Shown: piece by piece, positions 4,947 to 30,003 of the stretch
How the letters are laid out: every line of letters begins with the position of its first letter
Position numbering within the stretch: the stretch's first letter is position 1
Origin: Moritella sp. PE36
GTDB lineage: Bacteria; Pseudomonadota; Gammaproteobacteria; Enterobacterales; Moritellaceae
Assembly (NCBI RefSeq): GCF_000170855.1
Contig: NZ_ABCQ01000034.1
Coordinates: 1 to 50,160 of the forward strand
Length of the DNA stretch: 50,160 nucleotides
Direction: 5' to 3'
Notes under the pieces: model-generated
The model's database searches: none
What the model was told of the DNA's origin: nothing
What the model saw: only the letters and a program-made list of their open reading frames with translations
Made by a program: the position numbers and the translations under genes

Positions 4947-5549
4947 CTACCAATCAACGCCTTTTCTAATTTTAATCCCAGCTCTGAATGCATGTTTGGT
5001 ATCTTGAATATCACTGACGGTATCAGCCATTTCAATTAACTCAGCACTGGCACGTCGGCCTGTAACAATCACAGATTGCTCGCGTGGGCGGTTCTTTAAT
5101 GCATTAAGAATCTCGTCTTTTGGCAAGTAGTCATAACTTAACATGTAAGTTAATTCATCCAGCAGCACCACGTGAATATCAGGGTCTTTTAAAAATACTT
5201 TAGCCTGTTCCCATACGATTTTTGCAGCTTCAATATCGACTTCACGGTCTTGGGTATTCCAAGTAAAGCCAGTGCCCATCACCGCAAAAGGTACATCTAG
5301 CTTTTCTAACAGGTTACGCTCACCGCAATCCCATTTACCTTTAATAAACTGTACCACTGCGGCTTTATAACCATGGCCGACACAGCGCGTGACATTACCA
5401 AAACCCGCGGTGGATTTACCTTTACCATTACCCGTGATCACCAGCATAATACCGCGTTCTTCTTTGGCTTTTTCAACGCCTTTTTCAACCTTAATTTTAC
5501 GGTTTCTCGATTTACGTAAATGCTTTTCTACTTCGGTCATTTCTGTCAT
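4947..5549 (-). CDS. cobO: Cob(I)yrinic acid a,c-diamide adenosyltransferase (CobO/BtuR)
   Basis: Transfers the adenosyl group of ATP to the cobalt of reduced corrinoids, in the cytoplasm. The 200-residue product has the CobA-type P-loop GNGKGKST at residues 40-47, then VQFIKGKWDCGERN, VVLLDELTYML and the C-terminal VTGRRASAELIEMADTVSDI, all typical of the family and at its usual length. I chose the ATG at 5549 because AGGGAAGGG lies seven bases upstream. An ATG at 5570 would add seven residues but has no ribosome binding site. It is the last gene of the cobW-to-cobO operon. Confidence 0.96.
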   Translation of the reverse strand: MTEMTEVEKHLRKSRNRKIKVEKGVEKAKEERGIMLVITGNGKGKSTAGFGNVTRCVGHGYKAAVVQFIKGKWDCGERNLLEKLDVPFAVMGTGFTWNTQDREVDIEAAKIVWEQAKVFLKDPDIHVVLLDELTYMLSYDYLPKDEILNALKNRPREQSVIVTGRRASAELIEMADTVSDIQDTKHAFRAGIKIRKGVDW

Positions 5550-5592
5550 TATTTTACCCTTCCCTGTCATTCTATTTTTTTGGCAATGTTTG

Positions 5593-6210
5593 TTATTTTG
5601 GATCCGCTACTTTATTGGTGTAACACAATTGCGGAAAGTGTTCGCCTTCGTGGGCAAACACACTGATGTGGCTAATGCTGGCATAATCAATTTTAATCCG
5701 CTGAAATTGTACACCTTGCAGATAGTCTATTTTTAAGCACCAAGCGATTAACGTGCGGATCACGCCTGAATGCACAAACAAAGCAATACGCTTACCTTGA
5801 TGCTGTTGTAATACACTAAGCAGTGCAGCTTCAACACGTTGTGAAAAGTCCGCTAATGACTCCCCATTCGGCGGGGTATTGTTACCCGGATCGATAAAGA
5901 AGTTGTGCATGTCTTGCGGAAAGTCATTATGTAACTCCTGATAAGAACGCCCATCCCAATCACCAAAATCAAACTCAGCAAAGTCAGGTTTAATATGCAA
6001 AGGCACTTGTTGTTGCGCTGCTATGTATTCAGCGAATAACGCACAACGCTGTAAAGGTGACGCGATCATCACATCAATGTCAGTAAGATTGGCGCTGTTG
6101 TCGAGCATTTGTTGCCAACCTAATTCAGATAACTCCGGATTAGTACGACCTAATAACGCATTACGGATCTGCGGTTCACCATGACGCACTAAATACAATT
6201 CAGTCTGCAT
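5593..6210 (-). CDS. cobC: Alpha-ribazole phosphatase (CobC), histidine phosphatase family
   Basis: Removes the 5'-phosphate from alpha-ribazole-phosphate or from adenosylcobalamin-phosphate at the end of nucleotide-loop assembly. The 205-residue protein has the phosphoglycerate-mutase RHG motif at residues 9-11 (nucleophile His10), a second arginine in SPLQR, and the late histidine in FVHSGVIR (His147). The start codon abuts the cobU stop with no gap, which implies translational coupling. The specific role is inferred from position between cobU and cobO; a second protein of this family is encoded at 27332. Confidence 0.9.
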   Translation of the reverse strand: MQTELYLVRHGEPQIRNALLGRTNPELSELGWQQMLDNSANLTDIDVMIASPLQRCALFAEYIAAQQQVPLHIKPDFAEFDFGDWDGRSYQELHNDFPQDMHNFFIDPGNNTPPNGESLADFSQRVEAALLSVLQQHQGKRIALFVHSGVIRTLIAWCLKIDYLQGVQFQRIKIDYASISHISVFAHEGEHFPQLCYTNKVADPK

Positions 6211-6738
6211 CTACCCCCCTTTCAATGCTAACGGTAACCCTGCTACTACTAACGTCGCTTTATCAGACACCTTAGCTATCGCTTGGTTTAACCAACCAGC
6301 ATGATCAACAAAACTGCGGGACAACTCCCCCATCGGCACAATACCACTACCGACTTCGTTACTGACGATCACACAGTCACCCTCGAACGTCGTTAACGCA
6401 GTGATAAATGCCTGGCGTTGCGATTCAAATTCAGCAAAATTTTCAGAACAGATCCAATTGCTCAGCCATAAGGTCATGCAGTCAATCAGTACCACGGCAT
6501 TGGTGCCCGATAATGTTTGCAAACAACTCGCCAGTTGCAAAGGCTCTTCCACCAGCGACCAATCCTGATCACGACGTTGCTTATGCAGGTCAATGCGTTG
6601 CTGCATTTCATCGTCGTAGATGGTTGCAGTGGCGAGATAAATTAATTTTTCACCCGTACTTTGGCTTAATTCACCCGCGAGGGTTTCAGCATGAACACTC
6701 TTTCCCGAACGAGCACCGCCAATGACTAAATGGATCAT
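6211..6738 (-). CDS. cobU: Bifunctional adenosylcobinamide kinase / adenosylcobinamide-phosphate guanylyltransferase (CobU)
   Basis: Phosphorylates adenosylcobinamide and then transfers GMP to give adenosylcobinamide-GDP, the acceptor for CobS. The 175-residue protein starts MIHLVIGGARSGKS, with the P-loop at residues 7-14. RIDLHKQRR around 48-56 contains the histidine of the guanylyl-acceptor region, VLIDCMTLWLSNW is the Walker-B-like stretch, and VSNEVGSGIVP is the signature shared by the family. Its ATG overlaps the cobS stop by four bases (ATGA). Confidence 0.97.
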   Translation of the reverse strand: MIHLVIGGARSGKSVHAETLAGELSQSTGEKLIYLATATIYDDEMQQRIDLHKQRRDQDWSLVEEPLQLASCLQTLSGTNAVVLIDCMTLWLSNWICSENFAEFESQRQAFITALTTFEGDCVIVSNEVGSGIVPMGELSRSFVDHAGWLNQAIAKVSDKATLVVAGLPLALKGG

Positions 6739-7520
6739 CCTTGTAGTCCTATAATTAATACCATATAAATTAATAACTCACTGAGTTGCTGCGCTAAACC
6801 AAGTAAATCACCGGTGATTCCACCCACTTGTTTATGCACAAAACGACGGAAAAAAAACACAAACACCACTAATGCAAATAGCATAGGCAAGATTAATTCA
6901 GGCAGCAGTAATAGTGGTAAAAATCCTAATATTAAGCTGATAACTAAATCACTGCGTTGCTTGGGCTCAGCGACGGATTTAGACTTAGTATCTGCGGTTT
7001 CACGTACATATGGCGAGATAAACATCATCACAGTTGCGACTGTCCGACTGAGTGGATGGGCAATAAGCAATGCCAACATAATACTGTTATAACTAGAGAC
7101 ACTGATGTTGCTATAGCTCAATAACAACGCAAATTTAAGCGTTAATACAAACCATATTGCGATAGAACCGTAACTGCCGACTCGAGAATCTTTCATGATC
7201 GCGAGTTTCTGTTCGCGCGTCCAACCACCACCGAGTCCATCCGCCGAGTCCATCAGACCGTCTTCGTGAAACGCACCAGTAAGCAATACCCCAGTAAGCA
7301 TGGCAAACAAGATGGCAATTTCGACACTGAAATAGAGCTGAGTAAAGTAATATACCGCGCTACAACAACCGCCAATTAGCCAGCCCACCACAGGAAAATA
7401 ACGACAAGATTGATTTAACTTCCTGGCACTAAAATCTAAATTAGCGGGCACAGGAATACGAGAAAAAAATCCCAATGCCAACCAAAACAACTCTAACTCA
7501 ACTTTGAGTCGATTTATCAT
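6735..7520 (-). CDS. cobS: Adenosylcobinamide-GDP ribazoletransferase (cobalamin synthase, CobS)
   Basis: Integral inner-membrane enzyme that joins adenosylcobinamide-GDP and alpha-ribazole (or its phosphate) to make cobalamin. The 261-residue protein has several hydrophobic helices. The acidic catalytic motif HEDGLMDSADG is at residues 85-95 and KDSRVGSYG at 110-118, both diagnostic of the CobS/CDP-alcohol-like fold. It overlaps cobT by four bases at its start and cobU by four at its end. This is CobS of the Salmonella naming, not the CobS chelatase subunit of Pseudomonas naming. Confidence 0.97.
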   Translation of the reverse strand: MINRLKVELELFWLALGFFSRIPVPANLDFSARKLNQSCRYFPVVGWLIGGCCSAVYYFTQLYFSVEIAILFAMLTGVLLTGAFHEDGLMDSADGLGGGWTREQKLAIMKDSRVGSYGSIAIWFVLTLKFALLLSYSNISVSSYNSIMLALLIAHPLSRTVATVMMFISPYVRETADTKSKSVAEPKQRSDLVISLILGFLPLLLLPELILPMLFALVVFVFFFRRFVHKQVGGITGDLLGLAQQLSELLIYMVLIIGLQG

Positions 7521-8545
7521 ACTGCGTCAATACCTGCCGCTGCAAAACTCGCCATATCATTATAAAAACTGGCTGCCGCTTGTAATAATGGATAAGCCAA
7601 CGCTACACCAGTACCTTCACCTAAACGTAAATCTAATGTCAGTAGTGCATCAACATTAAGGTGCTTAAGCATTAACTGATGGCCTTGTTCTTGTGATTTA
7701 TGACAGAACACCATGTATTGCTGGCAATTAGGCTCTATCATCACCGCTAGCATCGCTGCTGCAGTGGTAATAAAACCATCGACTAGGATGATACTTTGAC
7801 GCTGCGCCGTTGCTAACATAGCACCTGTTATCTGCACAATTTCAAAGCCGCCAACATTGGCCATGATATCCATCGCAGTATCAAGTTTTCCTTCATGCAA
7901 TGCCATTGCCTGTTTAATCAACGCGACTTTCTTGGCATAAGCGTCATCACTAATGCCGGTACCACGACCAACACAATCTACCACCGGTAACTTAGTGATA
8001 GCAGACATGATCGCCGCCGCAGACGAGGTATTACCTATGCCCATCTCACCAAAACCTAATACATTACTGCCATTATCCAAATGTTTAATCGCAACATCAG
8101 CACCAAGCTGTAAACCTTGCTCAACGCTAGCTAATGTCATCGCCGCTTGTTTAGTAAAGTTAGCCGTACCATTACCTAGTGATTGCATGGTTAAGCGTTC
8201 ATCCGTCACCGGTAATAAAATACCGGCATCGATCACGTCCATGGCGATTTGGTTACTGCGACAAAAACAATTGATTGCCGCGCCACCGTTAAGAAAATTC
8301 AGCACCATTTGCTGCGTTACCGCTGACGGCGCAATACTGATACCTTCTTCGGCAATGCCATGATCACCAGCGAACACTAATATCGTCGGCTGCTTAAGAC
8401 TGATCGTGTCTTTGCCCGTGATAAGTGCTAATTGCAGCGCGAGCGATTCTAACGCACCCAATGCGCCCGGTGGTTTGGTTTTATTATTGATCTTGTTTTG
8501 AATAAATTCTTGGTCAGTGCGATCCAGCGTTTTAACATCAAACAT
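7517..8545 (-). CDS. cobT: Nicotinate-nucleotide--dimethylbenzimidazole phosphoribosyltransferase (CobT)
   Basis: Makes alpha-ribazole-phosphate from the lower-ligand base and nicotinate mononucleotide. The 342-residue product shows the family opening NKTKPPGALGALESLALQLA, the nucleotide-binding VFAGDHGIAEEGIS, GFGEMGIGNTSSAAA, and the catalytic glutamate in LRLGEGTGVAL (Glu310). I start it at the ATG at 8545, preceded by GAAAGG at good spacing. An upstream ATG at 8605 would add 20 residues not found in relatives and would lie inside cobN. No dimethylbenzimidazole-synthesis gene (bluB or bza) is seen in the window, so the base source is unknown. Confidence 0.95.
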   Translation of the reverse strand: MFDVKTLDRTDQEFIQNKINNKTKPPGALGALESLALQLALITGKDTISLKQPTILVFAGDHGIAEEGISIAPSAVTQQMVLNFLNGGAAINCFCRSNQIAMDVIDAGILLPVTDERLTMQSLGNGTANFTKQAAMTLASVEQGLQLGADVAIKHLDNGSNVLGFGEMGIGNTSSAAAIMSAITKLPVVDCVGRGTGISDDAYAKKVALIKQAMALHEGKLDTAMDIMANVGGFEIVQITGAMLATAQRQSIILVDGFITTAAAMLAVMIEPNCQQYMVFCHKSQEQGHQLMLKHLNVDALLTLDLRLGEGTGVALAYPLLQAAASFYNDMASFAAAGIDAV

Positions 8546-8579
8546 ACGGTACCTTTCATCCCTGTAAATAAAATCTGTT

Positions 8580-11500
8580 TTAATTCGAGCTTTCTTGTTT
8601 GGCATCGATCTCTAACAATAACGATTGTAACTTGCCACTGTAGTCACCTGGTTCTTGCCATAATCCCCGTTGCGTTGCTTCTAATAATCGCTCGGCCATC
8701 TCCTCTAACGCATTAACATTATGTTCCTGCATAAAGGCTTGGTTTTCTTGATCAAAAATTAATGCATCCGCCACTTTTTCATATTGATAATCATCAATCA
8801 AATTGGTTGTCGCATCATAAGCAAACATATAATCAATACTGGCCGCCATTTCAAACGCGCCTTTGTAACCATGTTCACGCATCGCAGCGATCCATTTCGG
8901 ATTTAATACCCGAGAACGAATAACCCGGTTTAATTCTTCTTTTAAAGTTCTGATCTTTGGCATTGCTGGATTAGAGTGATCGTTGTGATATACCACCGGC
9001 ATTTCATTTTTTAATACCCGAACCGCATTGGTCATGCCGCCCTGAAACTGATAATAATCATCAGAATCCAATAAATCATGTTCCCGGTTGTCCTGATTGT
9101 GCATCACCACATCAAGTTGTGATAAACGGTTTGCAAATGCACCTCTGGCAACCACACCATCAACATCCTCGGCAAGACTGCCATAAGCATAACCACCCCA
9201 ATTCAAATAGGCATCGGCCAAGTCTGATTCTTGCTGCCAACAACGCTCATCAATCAGTCCCTGTAAACCAGCACCGTAAGCACCCGGTTTGCTGCCAAAT
9301 ACCCGATAGGACGCTTGGCGTTTTGCTTCAGCGTCGGTCAGGCCTTGCGCAGATAATTCTTGTACTCGCTGCTTAATATTTTGTTGAATGGTATTTTGTG
9401 CACCGGGATCGTCATAATCCGCTAATGCCAATACCGCAGCATCGAACAACTTCATCACATTGGGAAAAGCATCGCGGAAAAATCCAGATACCCGCAACGT
9501 CACATCCACACGAGGACGACCTAATAATGCACAGGGAATGATTTCAAAATCGATAACCCGTTGTGAACCTGGTGCCCAAATTGGTTTAATGCCCATTAAT
9601 GCAAATGCCTGCGCAATGTCATCACCACCCGTACGCATAGTGGCCGTGCCCCAGACCGATAATCCAAGTTGTTTAGGATAATCACCATGCTCTTGTAAGT
9701 GACGCTCAATCACAGCTTGGGTTGACCGCTGACCAATTGCCCATGCGGCAGGTGACGGTATCGAGCGGTTATCTACCGAGAAAAAATTACGTCCCGTCGG
9801 TAACGTATCTAATCGACCTCGCGTGGGTGCGCCACTCGGTCCAGGCTCCACAAACAAGCCTGCTAAGCCATCTAACAAGGCTGAAATTTCATTCTCTACA
9901 CTTTGTTCTAGTGCGGTTAATAACGTATTTTTGACGTAACTCAGCTGCTGCATGGTGCGTGGCAACGCTGTCATTAGAGTATTATATTTATCGGCTGCAA
10001 TGGTCGGCGAAATTACCGGTGCAATTGTCGCTTCATTCACTAATACCAGCTCACTGACTAACTGCATGGCGAGCAGTTCTAGACGTTCATGGGTATCAAA
10101 CTCTGTTCGCCAACTATCATCACTGAGCTCAGCTAACAGCGATGGTTTCGCCCCTTGCCAAACATCACTACTGGCCGCCAACGGATCAAATATCTCACCC
10201 GCTTGTTGTAGATTAAGATCTAACGCCAGATTATGTAATATGCCTTGGCTGTGATGCTCTTTACCGCGTGGTAAACGTAACAAGGCGACGATGGTATCGC
10301 TGAGTTTATCCGCTTTTGGTAATACCCCAAGAATATGCAAACCGTGACGTATTTGCGCTTCTTTGATGTCACATAAATAGGTATCGAGTTCAGCAAACAT
10401 GTCATCGCGGCTATCACTATCTCCATAACTATTACCACCGAGTTCTTCGGCAACATGCGAGTTCTTCACCGCATCTACAATCGCTTCACGCAGCCAGAGT
10501 TCGCGTTGTTCATCCATGCCCATGGCTTGGTAATATTCATCCACCAGCCCTTCAAGTTCAGCCAGTTCGCCATAGACTTCCGCGCGGGTCATAGGCGGCA
10601 TTAAATGGTCGATAATAACCGACTGAATACGCCGCTTAGCCTGTGCGCCTTCCCCGGGATCATTAACAATAAAAGGATAAAAATTCGGCATCGGCCCCAA
10701 TACCAGATCAGGCCAGCACTTCTCTGATAATGCATTGCCCTTGCCCGGTAACCATTCTAAATTACCGTGTTTACCCACATGAATAATGGCATCAACTTGA
10801 TAGCTATGACGTAGCCAAAAATAAAACGCCAAATAACTGTGTGGCGGAATCAAATCGGGATCGTGATAATTTGCGGCTAAGTCAATATTAAAACCCCGCG
10901 CAGGCTGAATTCCAACAAAGGTTTGGCCTAAGCGAATGCCAGATAACATTAAGCGACCGTCCCGATATTTAGGGTCCTGTTCTGGTCCGCCCCACTTGTC
11001 CCAAATCGCCTGCTGGTTCTCAATCGGTAACTGTTGCAGATACTGCATATATTCATCAACCGCGATACTTTGCCAGCAACCTAGGTGGTGCAAGGTATCC
11101 GGGTTGTTAGTAATAGAGCCGAGTAACTCATGAATCAGCGCCGTGCCATTTTCAGGAATATTCTCGACCGGATAATTGGCCGCGGCTAACGCCGTTAAAA
11201 TATTCACGGTTGACTCGGGGGTATCTAAACCAACGCCATTACCAATGCGCCCATCTTTGGTGGGATAATTAGCAATAATCAAAGCGATGCGTTTGTCTTG
11301 ATTGGCTTTTATCGATAACTGGCAATATTTAAAGGCCAGGGACACCACAAACTCTGCCCGTTCGCGGTGTAACTGATATTTAACGATGGCGGTTTGACAA
11401 CGCTCACTAAAATCAGCGGCGGTTTTAAAGCTCACCGCCCGCGTCTGAATACGACCATCCATTTCTGGCAATACCACTTGCATAGCAATATCACGACTGC

Positions 11501-12527
11501 GTAAACCTTGTTTGTAATCCAGCCAATCTTGTTCGGTACTACTGGATAACACTAACTGAAATACTGGAATGTTAAGGCTAAACGGTGAAATGAATGAGCT
11601 AGGTTCAGCGCTTAAATCAGGACTGGCGGCGCGGTTACAAGAAAAACCCGTGGTATTAATAATGATTTTCGCTTGCGTCTGTAAAAGCAACTCATTCACT
11701 AGGTCAATAGATTCATCATCTTTCAATGATTGGATCGCGATCGGTAATGGCAACATGCCCTGTTGCTCAATACAATCGATTAAACCATCAAACATCGCGG
11801 TATTGTCACTTTGTAAATGACTGCGATAAAACAACAATAAACAAATAGGTCGATCTAATTCACTCACATCAGCGCGATCAGAGATTTGCTGCCAACGCTG
11901 CTGCCAGTCGTTCAAACTGACTTGCTGATACGATTTTTTATCATGTCTCAGCGCTGCCAGTATCGCGTTGGGCATATACAACATGCAATTGGGCAGCACT
12001 TGTGGTGGCCGCCATGCATAATTGTGGTTGAGGTATTGGCTGGCAAGATAATGATACAGGTTGTTTATATTGGCTGCGCCACCCTCACGCAAATAACGCC
12101 ACACTGCAACCGCGTCATCACGAGCGACACTTGATGCCGAAAATAATGCCTCATCCGCTGTATCATCACCCGGTACTATGATTAATTGGCGGGGATTTCT
12201 GACTGAACCCGCCGCTAACCAATCCTGTAATTGCGCAAAACCATACTGCCAGTAATTTTCGCCGCCCAATAAAGACACCACCACCACTTTGGCGTGATCG
12301 AGCACTTTATCTTGATAGAGGTCGAATGCGGCAGGTTTTAATAACTGCATCCAGTTAGCTAACCGGATGGAGGGGAAATCAGGGTCTAATGCTTCAGCGG
12401 CACTGGCCAATGCCGCCAATGAACTATCGGCGGCTGACAAAATAACAATGTCCGCAGGTGATTGCTCAAGATCAATGATACCTTCGTCATCGGTGAAACC
12501 ACCGGGTTGTGCCGCCAATAAATGCAT
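8580..12527 (-). CDS. cobN: Cobaltochelatase large subunit CobN (BchH/CobN family)
   Basis: Large class I chelatase subunit; in the oxygen-dependent pathway CobN with two AAA+/VWA partners inserts cobalt into hydrogenobyrinate diamide using ATP. The 1315-residue protein opens MHLLAAQPGG and LEQSPADIVILSAAD, typical of CobN. It holds the conserved HVGKHGNLEWLPGKG near residue 580, and further on TGRNFFSVDNRSIPS and VTLRVSGFFRDAFPN. Length is close to the usual 1250-1350, and I see no break. Its ATG overlaps the cobW stop (TAATG), so the two are translationally coupled. The surprise is its presence beside early-cobalt-insertion genes (cbiX, cbiD, cbiG). Its real substrate here is an open question. 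Confidence 0.95.
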   Translation of the reverse strand: MHLLAAQPGGFTDDEGIIDLEQSPADIVILSAADSSLAALASAAEALDPDFPSIRLANWMQLLKPAAFDLYQDKVLDHAKVVVVSLLGGENYWQYGFAQLQDWLAAGSVRNPRQLIIVPGDDTADEALFSASSVARDDAVAVWRYLREGGAANINNLYHYLASQYLNHNYAWRPPQVLPNCMLYMPNAILAALRHDKKSYQQVSLNDWQQRWQQISDRADVSELDRPICLLLFYRSHLQSDNTAMFDGLIDCIEQQGMLPLPIAIQSLKDDESIDLVNELLLQTQAKIIINTTGFSCNRAASPDLSAEPSSFISPFSLNIPVFQLVLSSSTEQDWLDYKQGLRSRDIAMQVVLPEMDGRIQTRAVSFKTAADFSERCQTAIVKYQLHRERAEFVVSLAFKYCQLSIKANQDKRIALIIANYPTKDGRIGNGVGLDTPESTVNILTALAAANYPVENIPENGTALIHELLGSITNNPDTLHHLGCWQSIAVDEYMQYLQQLPIENQQAIWDKWGGPEQDPKYRDGRLMLSGIRLGQTFVGIQPARGFNIDLAANYHDPDLIPPHSYLAFYFWLRHSYQVDAIIHVGKHGNLEWLPGKGNALSEKCWPDLVLGPMPNFYPFIVNDPGEGAQAKRRIQSVIIDHLMPPMTRAEVYGELAELEGLVDEYYQAMGMDEQRELWLREAIVDAVKNSHVAEELGGNSYGDSDSRDDMFAELDTYLCDIKEAQIRHGLHILGVLPKADKLSDTIVALLRLPRGKEHHSQGILHNLALDLNLQQAGEIFDPLAASSDVWQGAKPSLLAELSDDSWRTEFDTHERLELLAMQLVSELVLVNEATIAPVISPTIAADKYNTLMTALPRTMQQLSYVKNTLLTALEQSVENEISALLDGLAGLFVEPGPSGAPTRGRLDTLPTGRNFFSVDNRSIPSPAAWAIGQRSTQAVIERHLQEHGDYPKQLGLSVWGTATMRTGGDDIAQAFALMGIKPIWAPGSQRVIDFEIIPCALLGRPRVDVTLRVSGFFRDAFPNVMKLFDAAVLALADYDDPGAQNTIQQNIKQRVQELSAQGLTDAEAKRQASYRVFGSKPGAYGAGLQGLIDERCWQQESDLADAYLNWGGYAYGSLAEDVDGVVARGAFANRLSQLDVVMHNQDNREHDLLDSDDYYQFQGGMTNAVRVLKNEMPVVYHNDHSNPAMPKIRTLKEELNRVIRSRVLNPKWIAAMREHGYKGAFEMAASIDYMFAYDATTNLIDDYQYEKVADALIFDQENQAFMQEHNVNALEEMAERLLEATQRGLWQEPGDYSGKLQSLLLEIDAKQESSN

Positions 12528-13627: not shown

Positions 13628-13670
13628 GTATAGCTCCAAACTGCCATGTTGTTGAGCGAAAAGTGCTGAA

Positions 13671-13739: not shown

Positions 13740-13793
13740 GCATTATCAGTGTTTAACTATTTTGTCGTATACTTGCGCGCAGAGGTATTAATC

Positions 13794-20111: not shown

Positions 20112-20131
20112 TCTGTTAAAAGGCTAATAAG

Positions 20132-20914: not shown

Positions 20915-20920
20915 TTTGAC

Positions 20921-22018: not shown

Positions 22019-22022
22019 AAAA

Positions 22023-22709
22023 TTAAACCGCCTGATACAACCAGAAACAGCCTAACACGGTTGAAGCTAACGCGATCACGCGACGGCTCCAATAAAATAA
22101 CATGTCGTAACGCTGTTTTAATAACCCTTGCAGTGAGCCAAGACCAAGGCCAAATGCCATCATAGATAACATCACGCCAATCGAGAACATCAGTAAATAG
22201 CCGATAACCACAGATAACTCGGTTTGTCCGATAGCAGGGATCAACGCCAGTGCAGGAGCACTCCCCGCTAAACCATGTAAGACGCCAACCATTACCGGTA
22301 AATGACCGTCTTTGGTCGCTGCTTGTTCTACATCTTTACCATGTTCATCATGGTGCCAATGACTGTGTTCTACATCGCCATGACGATGCTTAGTTATCAC
22401 TAATTTTTGTTGTCTAAACTGCCAAAATGAATACAAACCTAGCACGATAAGTAATACGCCAACACTCATCTCAGCAACATGGATAAGCGCTTCTGGCAAT
22501 GCAATACCAAGACCAAATAACAGCAAGCCACTAACCACCAGCACACCGCCATGACCAATGGCCCAATTAGCACTGAACAATACCGTACGGCGTAGGCTTG
22601 GTTTCTGATTACTCAGACTGGAAACCGCCATCACATGATCCGCATCCAGCGCATGCATCATACCGAGGGTAAAACCCAATAAAATAATCGGTAACTGTTC
22701 AATTAACAT
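22023..22709 (-). CDS. UreH/NiCoT-like transmembrane metal transporter with His-rich loop
   Basis: Probable inner-membrane cobalt (or nickel) permease of 228 residues with about six hydrophobic segments. The motif HALDADH (residues 19-25) in the first helix is the metal-selectivity motif of nickel/cobalt transporters. VGVLHGLAGSAPALALIP near 141-158 is typical of UreH-like relatives. A cytoplasmic-type loop at 108-123 is packed with histidines (HRHGDVEHSHWHHDEH). I use the ATG at 22709, eleven bases after AAGGA; extending the frame further would run deep into cobB. Cobalt is favoured over nickel because it lies inside the B12 operon between cobB and cbiD, but nickel cannot be excluded. Confidence 0.88.
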   Translation of the reverse strand: MLIEQLPIILLGFTLGMMHALDADHVMAVSSLSNQKPSLRRTVLFSANWAIGHGGVLVVSGLLLFGLGIALPEALIHVAEMSVGVLLIVLGLYSFWQFRQQKLVITKHRHGDVEHSHWHHDEHGKDVEQAATKDGHLPVMVGVLHGLAGSAPALALIPAIGQTELSVVIGYLLMFSIGVMLSMMAFGLGLGSLQGLLKQRYDMLFYWSRRVIALASTVLGCFWLYQAV

Positions 22710-22713
22710 AAGT

Positions 22714-24030
22714 CTATAATTCCTTAAAAAGTGCTGCGATAGCCTGTGGATTTGATGGAAAAAATAAATGTAAGTAGCTCGCGGTAATATTGCCAACGCG
22801 ATAAATAGATTCACCCGGTGCTGGGTGTTTAGGCCGACGGCCGGTGGCAATCGGCTCTGGCGTATCAAAACTCAATGAACGGTGATGAGAATGACCACGA
22901 ATATCACCTTCCGGTAACGGTGCGGTTTGCATGCCTTGGCAGCCACCACGCTCACGCATTTGACCTTTACCTTGCAGTAATCCCAACATGGTAAATGAGT
23001 TATCTTGCAAGTCACCCAACGACTCAAGGCAATACAAGAATCCACCACATTCAGCCAAAATAGCGTTATCGGTTTGGGCAAAGTCACGAATCGATTGCAA
23101 CATAGATAAGTTACTTGTCAATTTATCGACATGCAGTTCTGGATAACCGCCCGGTAACCACAACGCATCCGCTTCTGGCATCACTTCGTCATACATAGGT
23201 GAGAAAAATACATAACTCGCGCCCAGATCGGTTAGCAAGCGTAAATTAGCATCATAGATAAAACTAAACGCGGTATCTTTAGCGATCGCAATGGTCTTTC
23301 CAGCCAGTTCAGGCGCTATGGGTAATAATTTGTCCTTCGCAACAGGATGAAACTCAATCGGTTTGACCACATCAAGAATATGCTTTAAGTCCGATGCTTC
23401 AATCCAGTCGATACCAGCCGCTAATTTTTGCTTCAATTCCGCTTGGATCTCTTCAGCTTGCACCAAACCAAGGTGTCGCTCGGGTAACGTGATCGTATCG
23501 GTACGCTTTAATGTAGCCAGTAACGGCAAACTTGCCGGCAGCGCATCACGGATCAATTGCGCATGGCGTTCACTGCCACAATTATTGGCAATCAGTCCGG
23601 CAACATCAAAATCATCGCGGAAATTAGCTAAACCCACTGCGATTGCGGCCGCAGTTTGTGCCATGCCTTTTACATCCATCACAATCGCAATCGGAATACC
23701 AAAATGCGCAGCAAGATCGGCACTGGATGGATCACCATCAAAAATCCCCATCGCCCCTTCGATTAAAATAATATCGGCCACCAGCGCCGCTTCATACATT
23801 TTTTGCTGGCAATACTCAGGGCCGCCCATCCATAAATCTAACGGTTCAACAGGTTGCCCGGATGCCTGACGTAGTATTTGTGGATCGAGATAATCTGGAC
23901 CCACCTTAAATACCCGAACCAGTTTGCCTTGCTTGGTCAACATGGAAGCCAATGCGGCAGTGATCGTGGTTTTACCTTGGCTAGACGAAGGTGCCGCTAA
24001 TATTAGTGCAGGACAAAGAACTCTGGTCAT
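22714..24030 (-). CDS. cobB: Cobyrinate a,c-diamide synthase (CbiA/CobB)
   Basis: Glutamine- and ATP-dependent amidation of the a and c carboxylates of cobyrinate. The 438-residue protein has an N-terminal dethiobiotin-synthase-like ATPase domain (P-loop in APSSSQGKTTITAAL; VGPDYLDPQILRQASGQP; LIEGAMGIFDG). Its C-terminal class I glutaminase-like domain has the cysteine nucleophile in ILAECGGFLYCLESL (near residue 328), and GHSHHRSLSF lies near the end. Length is slightly below the usual 450. Together with CobN nearby, either cobyrinate (cobalt in) or hydrogenobyrinate (cobalt out) could be its substrate; CbiX makes the former likelier. Confidence 0.96.
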   Translation of the reverse strand: MTRVLCPALILAAPSSSQGKTTITAALASMLTKQGKLVRVFKVGPDYLDPQILRQASGQPVEPLDLWMGGPEYCQQKMYEAALVADIILIEGAMGIFDGDPSSADLAAHFGIPIAIVMDVKGMAQTAAAIAVGLANFRDDFDVAGLIANNCGSERHAQLIRDALPASLPLLATLKRTDTITLPERHLGLVQAEEIQAELKQKLAAGIDWIEASDLKHILDVVKPIEFHPVAKDKLLPIAPELAGKTIAIAKDTAFSFIYDANLRLLTDLGASYVFFSPMYDEVMPEADALWLPGGYPELHVDKLTSNLSMLQSIRDFAQTDNAILAECGGFLYCLESLGDLQDNSFTMLGLLQGKGQMRERGGCQGMQTAPLPEGDIRGHSHHRSLSFDTPEPIATGRRPKHPAPGESIYRVGNITASYLHLFFPSNPQAIAALFKEL

Positions 24031-24103
24031 TGATTACAACTCTTACAACAAATGGTGATGTTAGGAAATACTGCTATTTATTTACGTCCAATTACAAATA
24101 GAT

Positions 24104-25873
24104 TTAAGTCGGTAGTACTAAATATTCACAATCGAGCTGCTGGGCAATTTCAGCTCCACGGCCACGTTTAATGGCACTGTCTTCAGTATCTATCAACACG
24201 GTATGACCCGTTAATTTAAGATCATCCACATCTTGGCTAATACGCCCATCAGTCAGTAAATAATTGCGAAACGCTAACCCGCCTTGTTGTTTTTGGCAGT
24301 TAGCTTGATAGGCACGTATTTGCGTTAACATTTCCCGGATTGGGGTGCCACCGCCAGCGGTAATACTATCAAGCAGATGCTGAATATATTTTGGTGCTTT
24401 TTGCTTTGGCATAACCGCTTCAATCACATCGTTACCAAAACCAAAAATACACAACAACTCACGTTGTTTATAAGCCTGCTCAGCAATATGCATGATGGCA
24501 GCTTTGGCACGCGATAATTGTAGCTTTTTTAATGTCGAACCCGAGGTATCCAATAAAATAACATGTAATATTGGCTGGCCGGTTTTGGCTTTTTTAAAGC
24601 GTAAACCCGCAGGCGGCCAACGTCCTAATGACGCAACCAAAGTAGCAAACCAATCGGGAGAAGCGGTGGTGTTCTTGCTAGATTTTTGCCCACCTAACAC
24701 CGCACCTTGATTATTTTTTGATGCTAAGGCAAGTTTATCGATTAGTTTTTTTTTAGCGTCTTGTTGTTTAATCGGTAGCTCTACGGCCTGAATATTGGTT
24801 ATAGGCTGAGAAACCGCAGGCATACTTCCCCATTCGCTACTGTCGCTTTGTTGCTGCATATTTGAATCAGCTTGCTCTGATGAAGACGGTTCTGCTGAAG
24901 TCGATGGCGGCGAAAATTGTGACGTTTGTGGGTATGTCGACTCTGGTCGAGAAAATGGTGATGTCGATGATGGCGGCTGGTGTTGATTATTTTCTACTGG
25001 CGGTGGTGATTGTGATGAACCCGCATTGCGGCGATGGTTTAACACCAATTCTTCAACCGCGAGGATATCCGCTTTCGTCACCTCGCTATGACCTTGCCAA
25101 GCTGCATGGGCAAGCGCGGTTTTAAACCAAACGATATCAGCACGTAAACCGTCAACATTCGCATCATGGCAACGTTGGGCAATAAACTGACGTAATGCCA
25201 GCGGACAACTCACTTGCCCAAGTAAGGCCTGCGCGTTAGTTATATCTTGCTGTAACTGCTGCTGTTGGTCTGCGTATTTCGCTATAAATGCGCTAGGGTC
25301 TTGATCGAACGCTTCACGTAAGCAGACAATTTCAACCCGTTCGTTAATGCTATATTGCGCTGATAACTCAACAGATAAGCCGAATCTGTCTAATAGCTGA
25401 GCACGTAATTCGCCTTCTTCAGGGTTCATTGTACCTAATAATATAAAGCGGGATTCGTGTTGATGACTGATCCCATCACGCTCAATATAATTGATACCAC
25501 TGGCCGATACATCTAATAATAGATCCACCAGTGAATCTGCCAATAAATTAACTTCATCAACATACACAATGCCCTGATGAGCCTTGGCCAGAATACCCGG
25601 TTTGAAATTAACTTTTTGCTCGCTCAATACCAATTGTAAATCCAGCGTGCCCACTAGCATCTCTTCTGTCGCAGATAGAGGTAAGGTCACAAAGTTTTGT
25701 AATTCATTCGGTAATATGTCTGCAAAACCGCGGGCTAACGTAGATTTAGCCGTGCCGCGTGGGCCATTCACCAATACCCCGCCAATACCAGGATTAATCG
25801 CCGCCAGGATCAGTGCAGTCTTAAACAGTGACTGACCCGATACGGCCGTAAATGGAAAGTTAACTCGGGACAT
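24104..25873 (-). CDS. ChlI-ChlD-type chelatase ATPase: AAA+ and VWA domains in one protein
   Basis: Motor subunit of a class I metal chelatase, the natural partner for CobN. The 589-residue protein has an N-terminal AAA+ domain with Walker A GPRGTAKST at 37-45, Walker B VDEVNLL at 105-111 and the ChlI-type GTMNPEEGELRAQLLDRFGL. A low-complexity Pro/Ser/Gln linker (about 286-365) follows. Near residue 440 begins a C-terminal von Willebrand A domain with MIDAS motif DTSGS and YLLTDGRISQD. So it joins what are separate I and D (or CobS and CobT of Pseudomonas naming) subunits. An ATG at 25873 is used; a TTG two codons earlier is better spaced from AAGG and may be the true start. Confidence 0.93.
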   Translation of the reverse strand: MSRVNFPFTAVSGQSLFKTALILAAINPGIGGVLVNGPRGTAKSTLARGFADILPNELQNFVTLPLSATEEMLVGTLDLQLVLSEQKVNFKPGILAKAHQGIVYVDEVNLLADSLVDLLLDVSASGINYIERDGISHQHESRFILLGTMNPEEGELRAQLLDRFGLSVELSAQYSINERVEIVCLREAFDQDPSAFIAKYADQQQQLQQDITNAQALLGQVSCPLALRQFIAQRCHDANVDGLRADIVWFKTALAHAAWQGHSEVTKADILAVEELVLNHRRNAGSSQSPPPVENNQHQPPSSTSPFSRPESTYPQTSQFSPPSTSAEPSSSEQADSNMQQQSDSSEWGSMPAVSQPITNIQAVELPIKQQDAKKKLIDKLALASKNNQGAVLGGQKSSKNTTASPDWFATLVASLGRWPPAGLRFKKAKTGQPILHVILLDTSGSTLKKLQLSRAKAAIMHIAEQAYKQRELLCIFGFGNDVIEAVMPKQKAPKYIQHLLDSITAGGGTPIREMLTQIRAYQANCQKQQGGLAFRNYLLTDGRISQDVDDLKLTGHTVLIDTEDSAIKRGRGAEIAQQLDCEYLVLPT

Positions 25874-25890
25874 CAGCAATATTTAACCTT

Positions 25891-25938
25891 TATTATTTAT
25901 TATTTATTATTTATTATTTATTATTTATTATTTATTAT
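25891..25938. repeat. Tandem heptanucleotide repeat (TATTATT x 6.9) between cbtA and chlID
   Basis: Six exact copies of TATTATT plus six more bases, beginning 17 bases before the chlID start and running through the cbtA stop codon on the minus strand (AATAATA as transcribed). Such perfect short repeats are prone to slippage, which would change the cbtA-chlID spacing in 7-bp steps. Confidence 0.95.
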
Positions 25939-26666
25939 AATCTAGCGTGCAACGAACTTTTCAGCATCCACGCACAAGATATCCCGAGGGCTATCCAGAA
26001 AATAAAATTACTGACCGTCGTCGCCACAATAAACTGCTGATGTAATTCAGTCAGCGCCATGACAGCATTGGCATCAGGATTCGAAAACAGTGGTCCATCA
26101 AAGTGTGGCGCACCGACAACGAAGGGCAATGCCAGACTAAGTAAACCGAATAATTTGAATTTAACTGGGGCGAATACAAACGTAACCAAGCTAATTGCTG
26201 CGCCGCAAACGGCCAACAACCACCAAGATTGACGATGCTCAAGTAAGTCGGCAGAAGAACCCGGTACCTCTGGTGGTAAACCGACACCTGGCACCACAAA
26301 AAAGATAAAGTACCCCGCTAATCCCCAGAGTATACCCTGCAACTTAGTCAGTTTAACCAAACCACGAGATTCAAACTGACTCATGACAACTAACAACATA
26401 CACGCAAAACCAATGGCTGCTAATACATTCGCCAACACAGTATAACCAACACGCTCAACACCATCTTCGGGTCCCCACGCTTCATCACTGTGATGTGATT
26501 CGGCATCCATATGTGCCGGCATTATTTGAGCCGGCTCACCAGCCACTTCATATACTTCGGCATCTAACAGGATCGGAGTAACACCAATGACTTGGATTGC
26601 ACTCAATAATATGCCAGTAAGTATACCGATCATCACGGCACTAAACATAATACGACGAAAAAACAT
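25935..26666 (-). CDS. cbtA: Cobalt transporter subunit CbtA
   Basis: Inner-membrane protein of 243 residues from the CbtAB family, predicted from B12-riboswitch regulons in other bacteria to move cobalt. It opens with MFFRRIMFSAVMIGILTGIL and has about five membrane segments. A loop with His52, His58 and His59 (AHMDAESHHSDEAWGPEDG) follows the first segment and is typical of the family. The conserved GYFIFFVVPGVGLPPEVPGS stretch is clear. The ATG at 26666 has GGAG eight bases upstream (the frame continues to a TTG one codon earlier). It follows cbtB on the minus strand and precedes chlID. Confidence 0.94.
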   Translation of the reverse strand: MFFRRIMFSAVMIGILTGILLSAIQVIGVTPILLDAEVYEVAGEPAQIMPAHMDAESHHSDEAWGPEDGVERVGYTVLANVLAAIGFACMLLVVMSQFESRGLVKLTKLQGILWGLAGYFIFFVVPGVGLPPEVPGSSADLLEHRQSWWLLAVCGAAISLVTFVFAPVKFKLFGLLSLALPFVVGAPHFDGPLFSNPDANAVMALTELHQQFIVATTVSNFIFWIALGISCAWMLKSSLHARL

Positions 26667-26737
26667 CAAACACGCTCCAATAAATTCATCACTAAATAAT
26701 CAATAACAACCTTCAATAGCAACACTGAATAATTAAA

Positions 26738-26935
26738 TTAATGACAAGGGAATGAAATTGAATGACGCGTATCGTGCGCAGCGTTATGTACTATTTGCAT
26801 CGGTGCAAAGCCAACAGCAAAAATGATTAACGCACCAAATGCAAATATAGCAGCATGCTGTAATGATTCAGAGCGTGTTAAAGGCGTTGTTTGAGTAGAA
26901 TTTATTGCTTGATTTGTCGTCACTGATGTTGGCAT
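26738..26935 (-). CDS. cbtB: Cobalt transporter subunit CbtB
   Basis: Small 65-residue membrane protein. One membrane segment (about 26-46, HAAIFAFGALIIFAVGFAPM) is followed by a C-terminal histidine motif HNAAHDTRHSISFPCH, the CbtB signature thought to bind cobalt for CbtA. I start at the ATG at 26935 (AGGG six bases upstream) instead of a codon seven residues earlier. It is the first gene of the long minus-strand B12 unit, so its upstream region should hold the main control signals. Confidence 0.93.
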   Translation of the reverse strand: MPTSVTTNQAINSTQTTPLTRSESLQHAAIFAFGALIIFAVGFAPMQIVHNAAHDTRHSISFPCH

Positions 26936-26956
26936 AAAAAACCCTAGGCACGTCAT

Positions 26957-27331
26957 TGTGCTGATGATGAATAAAGATCTAATGTAGATAATGTTTAAAA
27001 AGGGCTCAAAAGTACTTTACTACCATGATCAACCTGATCGTAAATACGACACTTATATCATCCTTTATAGCGGCAAAATAATACTATTATAGTCGCTAAC
27101 AAGCAAGCCAGTCGCCACGCTGGCTAACGATATAAACTCATCCACTATCAACAAGATAATCAACGTTTAAAGCATTAAACACCAACGGGGAAGTAAAATG
27201 CCAATTTAAAAACTTAAATTAAAATGCCATCCAATTCAAAACTCCAAACCCGAACCTAACGATTGTTCAGCGTTTCACTATCATGATAAAATCATGACTT
27301 ATTATATCTCGCAATATGTAACCTATTAATC
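26957..27331. other. Intergenic leader between cbtB and the second cobC-like gene
   Basis: A 375-bp AT-rich divergent region that must hold the promoters of units B and C. I see a 6-bp stem with 8-base loop (AGCCAG at 27106-27111, CTGGCT at 27120-27125) and small inverted repeats GATCA/TGATC (27027-27039) and TCGTA/TACGA (27038-27049). TCATGAT/ATCATGA (27281-27297) lies before the plus-strand gene. TATAAT occurs on the minus strand near 27085-27090. The conserved blocks of a cobalamin riboswitch are not recognisable on either strand. No small gene is evident. Confidence 0.5.
27281..27297 (+). promoter_or_regulatory. Inverted repeat upstream of the second phosphatase gene
   Basis: TCATGAT, spacer AAA, ATCATGA: perfect 7-bp arms, 35 bases before the ATG at 27332. 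It sits where a promoter -10 region would be expected, so it may be an operator. No known regulator is assigned. Confidence 0.35.
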
Positions 27332-27925
27332 ATGAAAACGTTATTTTTTCTCGCCCGTCATGGTGAAACCCAATGGAATAAGCTACAAAAACTCCAAGGT
27401 CAGTTAGATAGTCCGCTGACCGAAGCCGGTCTATTGCAAGCCCAGCAACTCGCCGTGCTATTAGCAACACCAGCCATAGATCGTATTATCAGTTCGCCAC
27501 TGCCACGGGCAGAGATGACCGCCAATATAATTAATCAAACGCTTAGTCTGCCACTACAGCAACATCCAGCACTCATCGAACGACACTTTGGTGACTGGCA
27601 AGGCTCACTCATTACTGACGTCAGTACACATTCCGATTACAATAATATATTTTTGCAAGTAACCGCTGATGCACCGCCAAATGGTGAAACAGGCGAAGCT
27701 TGTGCCCTGCGTTTCAAAAATGCATTGATTGAAATTGCCGAAACCTATCCACAACAAACCATTTTAGTCATGACCCACGGTGATATTTTACGCTGTTTCT
27801 TAGCGCAGGTTAATCAAGCCTCTGCCAATGATGAATTGCCGTTATATGCGAATTGCTGTGTGTCCACCACCGCTTTTGATCATCTTAAGCAGTCTTTTTC
27901 TATTAGCGGTACACTGCAAGCATGA
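27332..27925 (+). CDS. Second histidine phosphatase, CobC-like
   Basis: A 197-residue phosphoglycerate-mutase-family phosphatase. FLARHGETQWNKLQKLQGQLDSPLTEAG holds the RHG nucleophile (residues 9-11), ISSPLPRAEMTA the second arginine, and VMTHGDILRCFLAQ the second catalytic histidine. Its stop overlaps the cbiB start (ATGA), so it belongs to unit C. A role as alpha-ribazole phosphatase is plausible, but one cobC already lies at 5593, so one of the two may act on another phosphate ester. The two differ clearly in sequence. No good ribosome binding site precedes the ATG. Confidence 0.88.
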   Translation: MKTLFFLARHGETQWNKLQKLQGQLDSPLTEAGLLQAQQLAVLLATPAIDRIISSPLPRAEMTANIINQTLSLPLQQHPALIERHFGDWQGSLITDVSTHSDYNNIFLQVTADAPPNGETGEACALRFKNALIEIAETYPQQTILVMTHGDILRCFLAQVNQASANDELPLYANCCVSTTAFDHLKQSFSISGTLQA

Positions 27926-28872
27926 ATGATTATATAACCGTCAGCGTGATCCTTATCGCCGCATTTATACTTGATATATTACTGGGTGAGCCACGTCGTT
28001 ATCACCCCTTGGTAGGCTTTGGTAATATCACCAAAAAGTTAGAATGCTTGTTAAACAACAAACACAATAAACCTTGGCAAGCCAGATTAGTAGGCATCTG
28101 TGGCTGGGCCTTACTCACCCTTCCCCTGCCCTTGGGATATTTTTGGTTGCATCAAGATACACTGCTATTCTGGTGCCTCGACGCTGTCATTGTCTATTCT
28201 GCTATTGGTTATAATAGTCTGGTTAAACATGCCAAACAGATAGCTGCGCCTTTAATGAATGATGATATTCAACAAGCACGGCATTTTTGTTCTTACATAG
28301 TAAGCCGTGATACCAGCAATCTGAGCGAACAAGAAATTGCGCGCGCGACCACAGAGTCGGTATTAGAAAATGGCCATGATGCAGTCATTGCTTCTTTAGT
28401 CTGGTTTGCGATTGGTGGTGCGCCCTTAGTGATCTTACATCGCTTGGTGAATACTCTAGATGCTATGTGGGGATACAAAAATCCACAGTTTTTATATTTT
28501 GGCTGGTGCGCAGCCCGGATGGACGATTTACTCGGCTGGCCAACCGCGAAAGTATCGAGTTTACTGTATGCAAGTCAGGCCTTATGGTGTCGCCATACCA
28601 GCATGTTCAACGCGCTGCGCAACGGCTTGCGCCAAGGTCGACAATATAAAAGTTTAAATGGTGGTTGGGCAATGGCAACCGGTGCAACCGTATTGAATGT
28701 ATCATTGGGTGGACAAGGTATTTATGATGGCAAAGTTGTTGAATCTGTCACCCTAGGTCAAGGTCCGCAGGTTACTACTGCAGATATTGTTCCCAGCCTA
28801 AATTTAGTCCGCAATGCCGCAATTATTTTTATCATCAGCTGTTTATTCGTTAGTTTGATTGCCGCTGTATAA
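27922..28872 (+). CDS. cbiB: Adenosylcobinamide-phosphate synthase (CbiB)
   Basis: Integral inner-membrane enzyme that attaches (R)-1-amino-2-propanol phosphate to adenosylcobyric acid. The 316-residue protein has DILLGEPRRYHPLVGFGNIT near the N-terminus, and IVSRDTSNLSEQEIARATTESVLENGHDAV, whose short pieces SRDT and ESVLEN are diagnostic. LVNTLDAMWGYKN and the WCAARMDDLLGWPTAK segment follow. About five hydrophobic stretches are visible. It is coupled to the upstream phosphatase by a four-base overlap, with cobD 102 bp downstream. Confidence 0.97.
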   Translation: MNDYITVSVILIAAFILDILLGEPRRYHPLVGFGNITKKLECLLNNKHNKPWQARLVGICGWALLTLPLPLGYFWLHQDTLLFWCLDAVIVYSAIGYNSLVKHAKQIAAPLMNDDIQQARHFCSYIVSRDTSNLSEQEIARATTESVLENGHDAVIASLVWFAIGGAPLVILHRLVNTLDAMWGYKNPQFLYFGWCAARMDDLLGWPTAKVSSLLYASQALWCRHTSMFNALRNGLRQGRQYKSLNGGWAMATGATVLNVSLGGQGIYDGKVVESVTLGQGPQVTTADIVPSLNLVRNAAIIFIISCLFVSLIAAV

Positions 28873-28902
28873 CCGATTTTATTTAAACTTAGATTCAAAT
28901 AA

Positions 28903-28920
28903 TGAATAAGCGCTTATTCA
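28903..28920. promoter_or_regulatory. Perfect 18-bp palindrome upstream of cobD
   Basis: TGAATAAGCGCTTATTCA is its own reverse complement and lies in the 102-bp gap between cbiB and cobD, 54 bases before the cobD ATG. No T-run follows, so an operator is more likely than a terminator. Confidence 0.45.
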
Positions 28921-28974
28921 AGTAAACACTGACTCATCAACAATAGTCAAAAAAGAGCAAACAAGGACTTTTAG

Positions 28975-30003
28975 ATGACATTAGTACACGGCGGGCAACT
29001 GCAACAAGTTGCACTGCAATATGCCAGACCCATTGCTGAGTGGTTAGATCTCTCCACTGGTATCAGTCCAACTAGCTATCCGATACCGTCCATTCCAACG
29101 TCTGTTTGGCAGCAGCTACCACAACCGAGTCAGTCACTCATCACTGCAGCCAAACACTATTACGGTACTGACAATATTGTTGCGACCAGTGGTAGTCAAG
29201 CCGTGATAAAGCAACTACCCAGCATATTTAAACAACACGTAGCTGAGCAACTCATATCAGAACAAAGCACAGGTACTAGCACAGTGTGGTTACCGCTAGT
29301 CGGTTATAAAGAACATGAAAGAGCATGGCGTGAACAAGGTTTTACGATCCAGCAATACACTCAACTACCGACTAGCGCGCAATTAACAGCAAACTGTATT
29401 GTCGTGGTGATCAACCCCAATAACCCGACGGGAGAACTTTTCACCCGTAATACGCTACTGGCATTACTTGATAATATTCAAACCCTAAAAGGATGGTTGA
29501 TCCTTGACGAGGCCTTTATGGATGTCGTCGAGCCCAGTCAATCTATTATCTCGCACACAGATAATCCGCACCTATTGGTATTGCGCTCTGTGGGTAAATT
29601 TTTTGGTTTAGCCGGGATCCGCCTGGGTTTTTTAAGTGCACATCCGCAGTGGTTGCAAGCATTGGAGAAATTATCTAGTCCGTGGGAAGTCAATGGACCC
29701 GCACAATATATTACCGAAATCGCGTTAATGGACAGACAATGGCAACAGCAGCAATTATTAAGTCTCACGGCTTTATCGGCCACACTAGAGCTATTGTTGA
29801 TGACTACGTTTGATTGTCCTGTCGCAGGGTCTGCGTTATTTAAAACCATACGGTTAGACAACGCGCCAGAGGTATATATATTATTGTGTCAACAAGGGGT
29901 TTATGTACGCTTGTGTGATGAACAGAATGCGTTACGGTTTGGCATACCAGACCAGAATGGATTAGTTAAATTGGCCAAGGTATTGCAGCAACTAGCTAAG
30001 TAA
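28975..30003 (+). CDS. cobD: L-threonine-O-3-phosphate decarboxylase (CobD), PLP enzyme
   Basis: Makes (R)-1-amino-2-propanol O-2-phosphate for CbiB. The 342-residue fold-type I aminotransferase relative opens VHGGQLQ and has LDLSTGISP, typical of CobD. VVVINPNNPTGELFTR (NPNNPTG at 147-153) binds the substrate and cofactor, ILDEAFMD holds the aspartate, and the PLP lysine is Lys208 in LRSVGKFFGLAGIRLGF. AAGGA seven bases before the ATG fits well. It closes unit C; a modest hairpin follows. General histidinol-phosphate aminotransferases look similar, but the context settles the role. Confidence 0.95.
   Translation: MTLVHGGQLQQVALQYARPIAEWLDLSTGISPTSYPIPSIPTSVWQQLPQPSQSLITAAKHYYGTDNIVATSGSQAVIKQLPSIFKQHVAEQLISEQSTGTSTVWLPLVGYKEHERAWREQGFTIQQYTQLPTSAQLTANCIVVVINPNNPTGELFTRNTLLALLDNIQTLKGWLILDEAFMDVVEPSQSIISHTDNPHLLVLRSVGKFFGLAGIRLGFLSAHPQWLQALEKLSSPWEVNGPAQYITEIALMDRQWQQQQLLSLTALSATLELLLMTTFDCPVAGSALFKTIRLDNAPEVYILLCQQGVYVRLCDEQNALRFGIPDQNGLVKLAKVLQQLAK

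Follow-up and report, generated by a model that had tools for sequence, protein, structure and literature searches.

Why a bacterium thought to insert cobalt early in vitamin B12 synthesis should also keep the ATP-driven chelatase of the cobalt-late pathway is a standing annotation question, to which salvage has been offered as a speculative answer (PMC8305020). The question is raised by a stretch of 50,160 nucleotides from Moritella sp. PE36 (contig NZ_ABCQ01000034.1, hereafter the window), in which a single B12 locus spans positions 4947–30003. The locus was confirmed to combine a near-complete cobalt-early pathway, represented by CbiX, a two-domain CbiG, and CbiD, with an intact late-type chelatase composed of CobW, CobN, and ChlID, and the gene inventory given for it by the original prediction corresponds to intact open reading frames (ORFs) with profile matches (Table 1). 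The reading we favor, with moderate confidence, is that CobN–ChlID–CobW would insert cobalt into preformed cobalt-free corrinoids, as salvage or rescue, beside a cobalt-early pathway running via CbiX. New in the present analysis is the retention of CobN in genomes that lack both of the ring enzymes tested (CbiC and CbiH/CobJ), often near importer genes.

CbiC is used by both routes to the corrin ring, and a CobN serving only de novo late insertion should vanish along with the ring pathway. Nine genomes from six families encode a CobN over the TIGR02257 cut-off without CbiC at E≤1e-10, namely G145, G244, G245, and G246, which belong to one family, together with G494, G617, G527, G535, and G028. 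CobJ/CbiH gave only weak matches in the same nine genomes, none exceeding 57 bits where the cut-off is 246, and completeness is at least 99% for eight of them and 93% for G028. G245 shares its contig coordinates with G197, the two being counted once, and G010 was excluded because its CobN-like protein (544.9 bits) lies under the cut-off. An even draw of 398 genomes from the same phylum contained 59 with a strong CobN, 4 of which have no CbiC. Rescue or salvage of cobalt-free corrinoids, among the candidate roles listed in the original prediction, gains support from these genomes. A control genome, Deinobacterium chartae, has a CobN over the cut-off and CbiX without CbiG_N or CbiC, so that it may be a further ring-less bearer of CobN, from a phylum other than Pseudomonadota.

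Importer genes of the FecCD/BtuF type occur in the CobN stretch of six of the nine ring-less genomes (Pfam-checked in loci L080, L085, L117, and L118), while the same queries matched none of the 79 other loci of L005–L084, which are of the ring type like that of the window, and 1 of the 20 of L128–L147. A cobW gene stands beside cobN in six of the nine, and a CbiM-type cobalt-uptake gene is likewise present in six (PF01891 in L085; the others by tblastn at 55–61% identity). G145, G245, and G246 have the common order cbiB-cobO-BtuF-BtuC-BtuD-cobW-cobN-chlI-chlD followed by a CbiM-like gene, an order that G244 shares from cobO, where its contig starts, through to its CbiM-like gene. In G527 the importer genes share a strand with cbiB, whereas cobO, cobN, cobW, and cobU occupy the opposite strand; a CobB/CobQ-type amidotransferase gene is close by, as are cobT and cobS. 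G535 has a cobB-like gene (tblastn), cobN, and the importer genes one after another, in the neighborhood of a TonB receptor gene. The remaining stretches hold a CbiM-like gene, cobW, cobN, and chlID (G617) or chlID with CobN (G494 and G028). In G494, a second and more divergent CobN-like gene directly adjoins CobN (L115:12222–16211). G220, which has a ring cluster (L124) and an importer–CobN operon (L122) with a single CobN, does not discriminate between the readings.

The window CobN is an intact ORF of equivalog level (TIGR02257) and the single match to that model in its genome, aligning to the CobN chain of PDB 9uk9 with 1145 bits over query positions 1–1297, as compared to 363 bits for the heme de-chelatase HmuS. 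The proposed ChlI–ChlD-type motor is borne out by an AAA part with the Walker A motif GPRGTAKST and a VWA part with the MIDAS motif DTSGS; it is, however, encoded as one fused protein with a linker between these parts rather than as two genes, and scores under the TIGR02442 cut-off. Its Pfam VWA match (PF13519) reaches 23.9 bits, under the cut-off of 27, and its match to PDB ChlI reaches 257 bits. CobW carries the CxCC motif regarded as a likely Co(II) site (PMC7689651). Relative to Moritella sp. DT_65, in which CobN is ∼97% identical, dN/dS values of 0.063 (cobN), 0.016 (cobW), 0.063 (cbiX), and 0.198 (chlID) were obtained, indicating strong purifying selection on cobN, cobW, and cbiX.

No recognizable oxygen-dependent ring-contraction enzyme was found in this 5.22-Mb genome (131 contigs, 99.9% complete) at the thresholds used: the best match to CobG anywhere in it is 64.9 bits against a TIGR02435 cut-off of 234.8, and CobF and CobZ gave no match at E≤1e-30 and E≤1e-20, respectively. 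The claim that the oxygen-dependent route is incomplete thus stands, the genome-wide search for CobG or CobZ and CobF that had been named as able to overturn the original prediction having come out negative. Two of the markers on which that prediction relied for the early route do not hold. CbiD is no cobalt-early marker, as it shares a stretch with CobG in four fetched loci (L099 and L102 by NCBIfam score, L131 and L133 by tblastn). CbiX alone is not one either, since the CbiX of the alpha-proteobacterium Paracoccus, an organism that has CobN, is a siroheme ferrochelatase with its catalytic histidine in the C-terminal half (PMC4063343). The window CbiX consists of two half-domains, with motif histidines His33 (GHGSR) and His99 (HAKNDIP) in the N-terminal half, as described for CbiXL and SirB (PMC4063343), and a C-terminal half that reads GRGTS; SirB is itself an iron enzyme, so this arrangement leaves the metal unsettled, and cobalt is the predicted one. 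The early-route reading is instead carried by CbiG, which matches both PF11760 (CbiG_N) and PF01890 (CbiG_C) and whose reaction is described as cobalt-dependent (PMC8305020), together with the lack of CobG and CobZ.

The pairing of an early route with CobN is not unusual but widespread. Sixty-five genomes were searched, comprising the source genome, 21 genomes with CobN-like matches from an even draw by class, and a further 43, with close relatives of the window CobN, that were located by way of 43 out of 80 named CobN loci; these 43 were picked by hand from the 80 fetched loci to thin near-copies of Marinomonas and Neptuniibacter and are not phylogenetically independent. Among the 43, CbiX was found in 42, CbiG_N in 41, CbiC in 42, CobF in one (G200), and a CobZ-like protein over the cut-off in three. 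The full combination of CobN, CbiX, CbiG_N, and CbiC without CobG, CobF, or CobZ was seen in 36, the tally leaving out G163 (no CbiX), G189 and G197 (no CbiG_N, and in G197 no CbiC), G200 (CobF present), and G169, G173, and G177 (CobZ-like). CobZ and related flavoproteins could not be separated here by the TIGR02485 model, whose cut-off is also exceeded in two genomes of the class draw, G051 and G106; G179 scores 257.5 bits, which is under that cut-off, and was kept. The pairing is also in print (PMC6461909, PMC8305020) and, given both this and the 36 genomes, is ordinary in kind. Four of 14 control genomes match CobN, CbiX, CbiG_N, and CbiC (Methanocaldococcus jannaschii, Methanosarcina acetivorans, Haloferax volcanii, and Synechococcus elongatus), and the CobN locus is conserved across many genera; of 80 related loci, 61 show the order cbiF-cobW-cobN, whether or not cbiX intervenes.

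Five of the 43 genomes passed the TIGR02435 cut-off for CobG, and all five calls were rejected because the proteins score far better as nitrite reductases (NirA family at 558–594 bits in four, ferredoxin-nitrite reductase at 695 bits in L098/G199). Proteins of this type in L094–L098 show how the aerobic route could be called in error; the CobG cut-off was also passed in 1 of the 14 control genomes. In G200, the Mesoflavibacter genome of L084, CobF over the cut-off accompanies CbiX and a 779-residue frame that contains a CbiG_N domain.

Under the favored reading, CbiX would place cobalt into sirohydrochlorin, from which the ring would be built by the cobalt-early route, and CobN would separately metalate a preformed cobalt-free corrinoid at the a,c-diamide stage or close to it. 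CobW supplies Co(II) in the characterized late pathway and would load it here, the ChlID motor would spend ATP to drive CobN, and CobO, CobU, CobT, and CobS would finish the metalated corrinoid. The substrate may be salvaged from outside or be self-made when the early chelatase misses. Metalation near the a,c-diamide level fits the position of cobB, which adjoins chlID in the window, and of the CobB-like gene that adjoins cobN in G535.

Several observations weigh against insertion of cobalt into salvaged or rescued corrinoids. Assemblies may miss genes, and among the ring-less genomes the 93%-complete G028 has a divergent CobN, and G245 shows 7% contamination. Within the fetched stretches, an importer of the FecCD/BtuF type is absent from the window and from 79 of 80 related loci, and from the CobN stretch of three of the nine ring-less genomes (G494, G617, and G028), while no cobW was seen in that of G494, G535, or G028; in G527 the importer lies on the strand opposite CobN. 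All importer queries were drawn from a single family, which means that distant importers may escape detection, and Peripla_BP_2/FecCD proteins also include heme and siderophore importers, such that other ligands may be involved. To our knowledge, cobalt-free corrinoids have not been measured in seawater. Finally, CobN travels with ring genes in ring-type genomes (the 61 loci above), and this linkage, together with the lack of importers, is explained by rescue of corrinoids made by the cell itself, or by a genuine late step, no less well than by uptake.

A stronger form of the salvage reading, a dedicated scavenging pathway with a CobN–ChlID–CobW core in which metal-free corrinoid and cobalt would be imported separately and joined, as a second entry in cobalt-early producers and as the sole source in ring-less bacteria, is possible, if doubtful; the absence of importer genes from 79 of 80 related loci counts slightly against it and slightly in favor of restriction to the cell's own corrinoids. 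That restricted role, in which CobN–ChlID would repair or rescue cobalt-free corrinoids made under cobalt shortage, with no import, agrees with the retention of CobN beside ring genes, with the missing importers, and with the presence at the locus of CbtA, a proposed cobalt transporter; it is nonetheless unlikely, as CobN is retained where CbiC and CobJ/CbiH are missing, in genomes that should be unable to make corrinoids themselves. Just as unlikely is a late pathway in disguise, in which CbiX would make siroheme, the ring would be built without cobalt by way of an unrecognized CobG substitute, and CobN would perform the normal cobalt step. The Paracoccus-type ferrochelatase in an organism with CobN (PMC4063343), the adjacency of cobW-cobN to ring genes in the same 61 loci, and the co-occurrence of CbiD with CobG elsewhere all speak for it; CbiL and CbiC also score better on NCBIfam models named for metal-free precorrins than on those named for cobalt intermediates, while CbiJ does the opposite, so that these scores are not decisive. 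It is opposed by the genome, in which neither CobG nor CobZ was found above cut-off, by the N domain of CbiG with its reportedly cobalt-dependent reaction (PMC8305020), and by the N-terminal histidines of CbiX, which resemble CbiXL/SirB rather than the Paracoccus enzyme (PMC4063343), SirB remaining an iron chelatase.

De-chelation of heme or another tetrapyrrole was raised by the original prediction and is reminiscent of HmuS, a CobN relative that de-chelates heme (PMC12583661); a Has-type heme-uptake set does lie between cbiX and cbiF in the close relative Moritella DT_65. We consider this role improbable, and heme finds little support as a substrate, in view of an equivalog-level CobN far closer to solved CobN than to HmuS, of the adjacent cobW, cobO, and nucleotide-loop genes, and of the absence of heme genes here in both the window and L006, where the cbiF–cbiX gap is 168 bases. 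Decay to a functionless relic might be expected if CbiX made the CobN chelatase redundant for de novo synthesis, but intact ORFs, low dN/dS, and conservation across many genera make this the most remote of the explanations.

Four described systems place the favored reading, insertion into preformed cobalt-free corrinoids, in context. Haloferax volcanii HVO_B0051/B0050 likewise joins a CbiX early route to CobN and an adjacent ChlID, with a salvage role speculated upon for the haloarchaeal proteins (PMC8305020); that system is archaeal, whereas the present locus comes from a gammaproteobacterium and places CobW next to CobN. In Sphingomonas haloaromaticamans, a riboswitch-btuB-hoxN-cobW-cobN-cobO-btuF locus links CobW–CobN to genes for corrinoid uptake in a strain that reportedly lacks ring synthesis, like the ring-less loci here and unlike the window genome, which has ring genes; the available text of that paper draws no special role for CobN (PMC6970198). 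HmuS belongs to the same class I chelatase superfamily as the window CobN (PMC12583661), which differs in its much lower similarity, its gene neighborhood, and the lack of evidence of heme use; the function of some archaeal CobN groups is called unclear in the same source. With the CobNST or CobN–ChlID chelatase of the cobalt-late pathway, the window shares an equivalog-level CobN, CobW, and an AAA/VWA motor, but it has CbiX and a CbiG with its N domain, no CobG, CobF, or CobZ found in the genome, and a motor that is fused in frame and under the TIGR02442 cut-off. No test of CobN as a salvage enzyme for cobalt-free corrinoids was found among open-licence papers. The ring-less CobN operons make the role of the late chelatase testable with defined cobalt-free corrinoids; if the favored reading is true, cobalt-free corrinoids would count among exchanged nutrients, and the presence of CobN would cease to indicate aerobic B12 synthesis.

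A CobN tree of 64 rows (quick method, LG+G4), in which some branches are long and labels of "other" were assigned without a pathway test, places the window CobN in one clade with those of cobalt-early marine gammaproteobacteria. The tree is not split by pathway type: CobN of L136 and L137, whose clusters have a CobG match (tblastn), nests within the cobalt-early group; for the ring-less label at least five changes are required, and for the late label at least four on starred branches. Among the rows labeled early, four genomes have CobZ-like matches (L016, L023, L027, and L090), and L059 shows no match to CbiG_N.

The genes of the locus are listed in Table 1. One minus-strand group runs cobW-cobN-cobT-cobS-cobU-cobC-cobO, with adjacent genes overlapping or separated by fewer than 30 bases, and the other runs cbtB-cbtA-chlID-cobB-nicO-cbiD-cbiJ-cbiC-cbiET-cbiL-cbiG-cbiH-cbiF. 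Between them lies the divergent cbiX, and a phosphatase gene, cbiB, and a cobD-like gene are also on the plus strand. Gene order in Moritella DT_65 matches except for an insertion between cbiX and cbiF, where a heme-uptake-like set (L100:16305–19998 and L101:5–2492) comprises a TonB receptor and HasA by Pfam, with ABC and membrane-fusion proteins read from translations; the set is absent from the window.

Table 1 Genes of the B12 locus in the window, with supporting profile scores
Feature	Coordinates	Strand	Evidence
cobO/btuR, corrinoid adenosyltransferase	4947..5570	-	TIGR00708 209 bits, cut-off 167.75
cobC-like histidine phosphatase (alpha-ribazole phosphatase type)	5593..6210	-	TIGR03162 144.9 bits, under cut-off 162.9; PF00300
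cobU/cobP	6211..6738	-	NF004469 201.9 bits, cut-off 161
cobS, nucleotide-loop cobalamin synthase (not chelatase CobS)	6735..7520	-	NF001277 297 bits, cut-off 273
cobT, DMB phosphoribosyltransferase (not chelatase CobT)	7517..8605	-	TIGR03160 429 bits, cut-off 319
cobN, ATP-driven cobaltochelatase large subunit	8580..12527	-	TIGR02257 1549 bits, cut-off 822
cobW GTPase	12527..13639	-	TIGR02475 466 bits, cut-off 332; CICC motif, His-rich stretch
cbiX, class II sirohydrochlorin chelatase, long two-domain form, His-rich tail	13749..14882	+	PF01903, two stretches
cbiF/cobM	15039..15800	-	TIGR01465 311 bits, cut-off 260
cbiH/cobJ, ring-contraction methyltransferase	15797..16573	-	TIGR01466 286 bits, cut-off 246
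cbiG, N and C domains, no middle-domain match	16595..17371	-	PF11760 and PF01890
cbiL/cobI	17375..18115	-	TIGR01467 212 bits, cut-off 163
cbiET fusion	18090..19427	-	TIGR02467 and TIGR02469, both over cut-off
cbiC/cobH	19428..20069	-	PF02570 234 bits
cbiJ/cobK	20132..20914	-	PF02571 176.5 bits
cbiD	20921..22018	-	TIGR00312 373 bits, cut-off 200
NicO/HoxN-like putative nickel/cobalt transporter (weak)	22023..22868	-	PF03824 25.8 bits, under cut-off 27.7
cobB/cbiA, a,c-diamide synthase	22714..24030	-	NF002204 395 bits, cut-off 254
chlID, fused AAA+ motor and VWA protein	24104..25879	-	TIGR02442 469.5 bits, under cut-off 779; motifs
cbtA, putative cobalt transporter subunit	25935..26669	-	TIGR02458 198 bits, cut-off 183
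Small cbtB-like ORF	26738..26956	-	ORF kept at same place in L101
Second histidine phosphatase	27332..27925	+	PF00300 159.6 bits
cbiB	27922..28872	+	PF03186 280 bits
cobD/cobC-like aminotransferase-fold protein (B12 role suggested by position)	28975..30003	+	PF00155 117 bits

The small ORF next to cbtA is presumably cbtB, a name taken from gene order. The NicO-like ORF, read from a TTG codon, overlaps cobB by 155 bases, and its real start is probably later. Neither CobQ/CbiP nor BluB was found among the window genes scanned, the rest of the genome not having been searched for either, and no Rfam family reached the gathering threshold in the window, so that no B12 riboswitch was called; positions 26600–27400 gave only chance matches of the snoRNA type. 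Two stand-alone tetrapyrrole methylases (PF00590) of ∼270 residues elsewhere in the genome (L125 and L126) could, judging from size and family, supply precorrin-2.

A perfect (TTTATTA) repeat at 25889–25938 fills most of the gap directly upstream of chlID, with seven copies in the window and five in Moritella DT_65 (L101), its length thus differing between the two relatives. Within the chlID linker, a run of nine A at 24746–24754 (minus strand) lies, in the alignment, no more than one column away from a frameshift-type site of relatives, A AAA AAA/G one codon ahead of the chlI stop with chlD continuing in the -1 frame, which is found at that column in 10 of 16 compared relatives and nearby in an 11th. 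The long frame of the window chlID is intact, and the two other frames close within 0–3 codons. Frameshifting chlD genes are already known (PMC9227772), and slippage at the A run could give a ChlI-like short form of the window protein.

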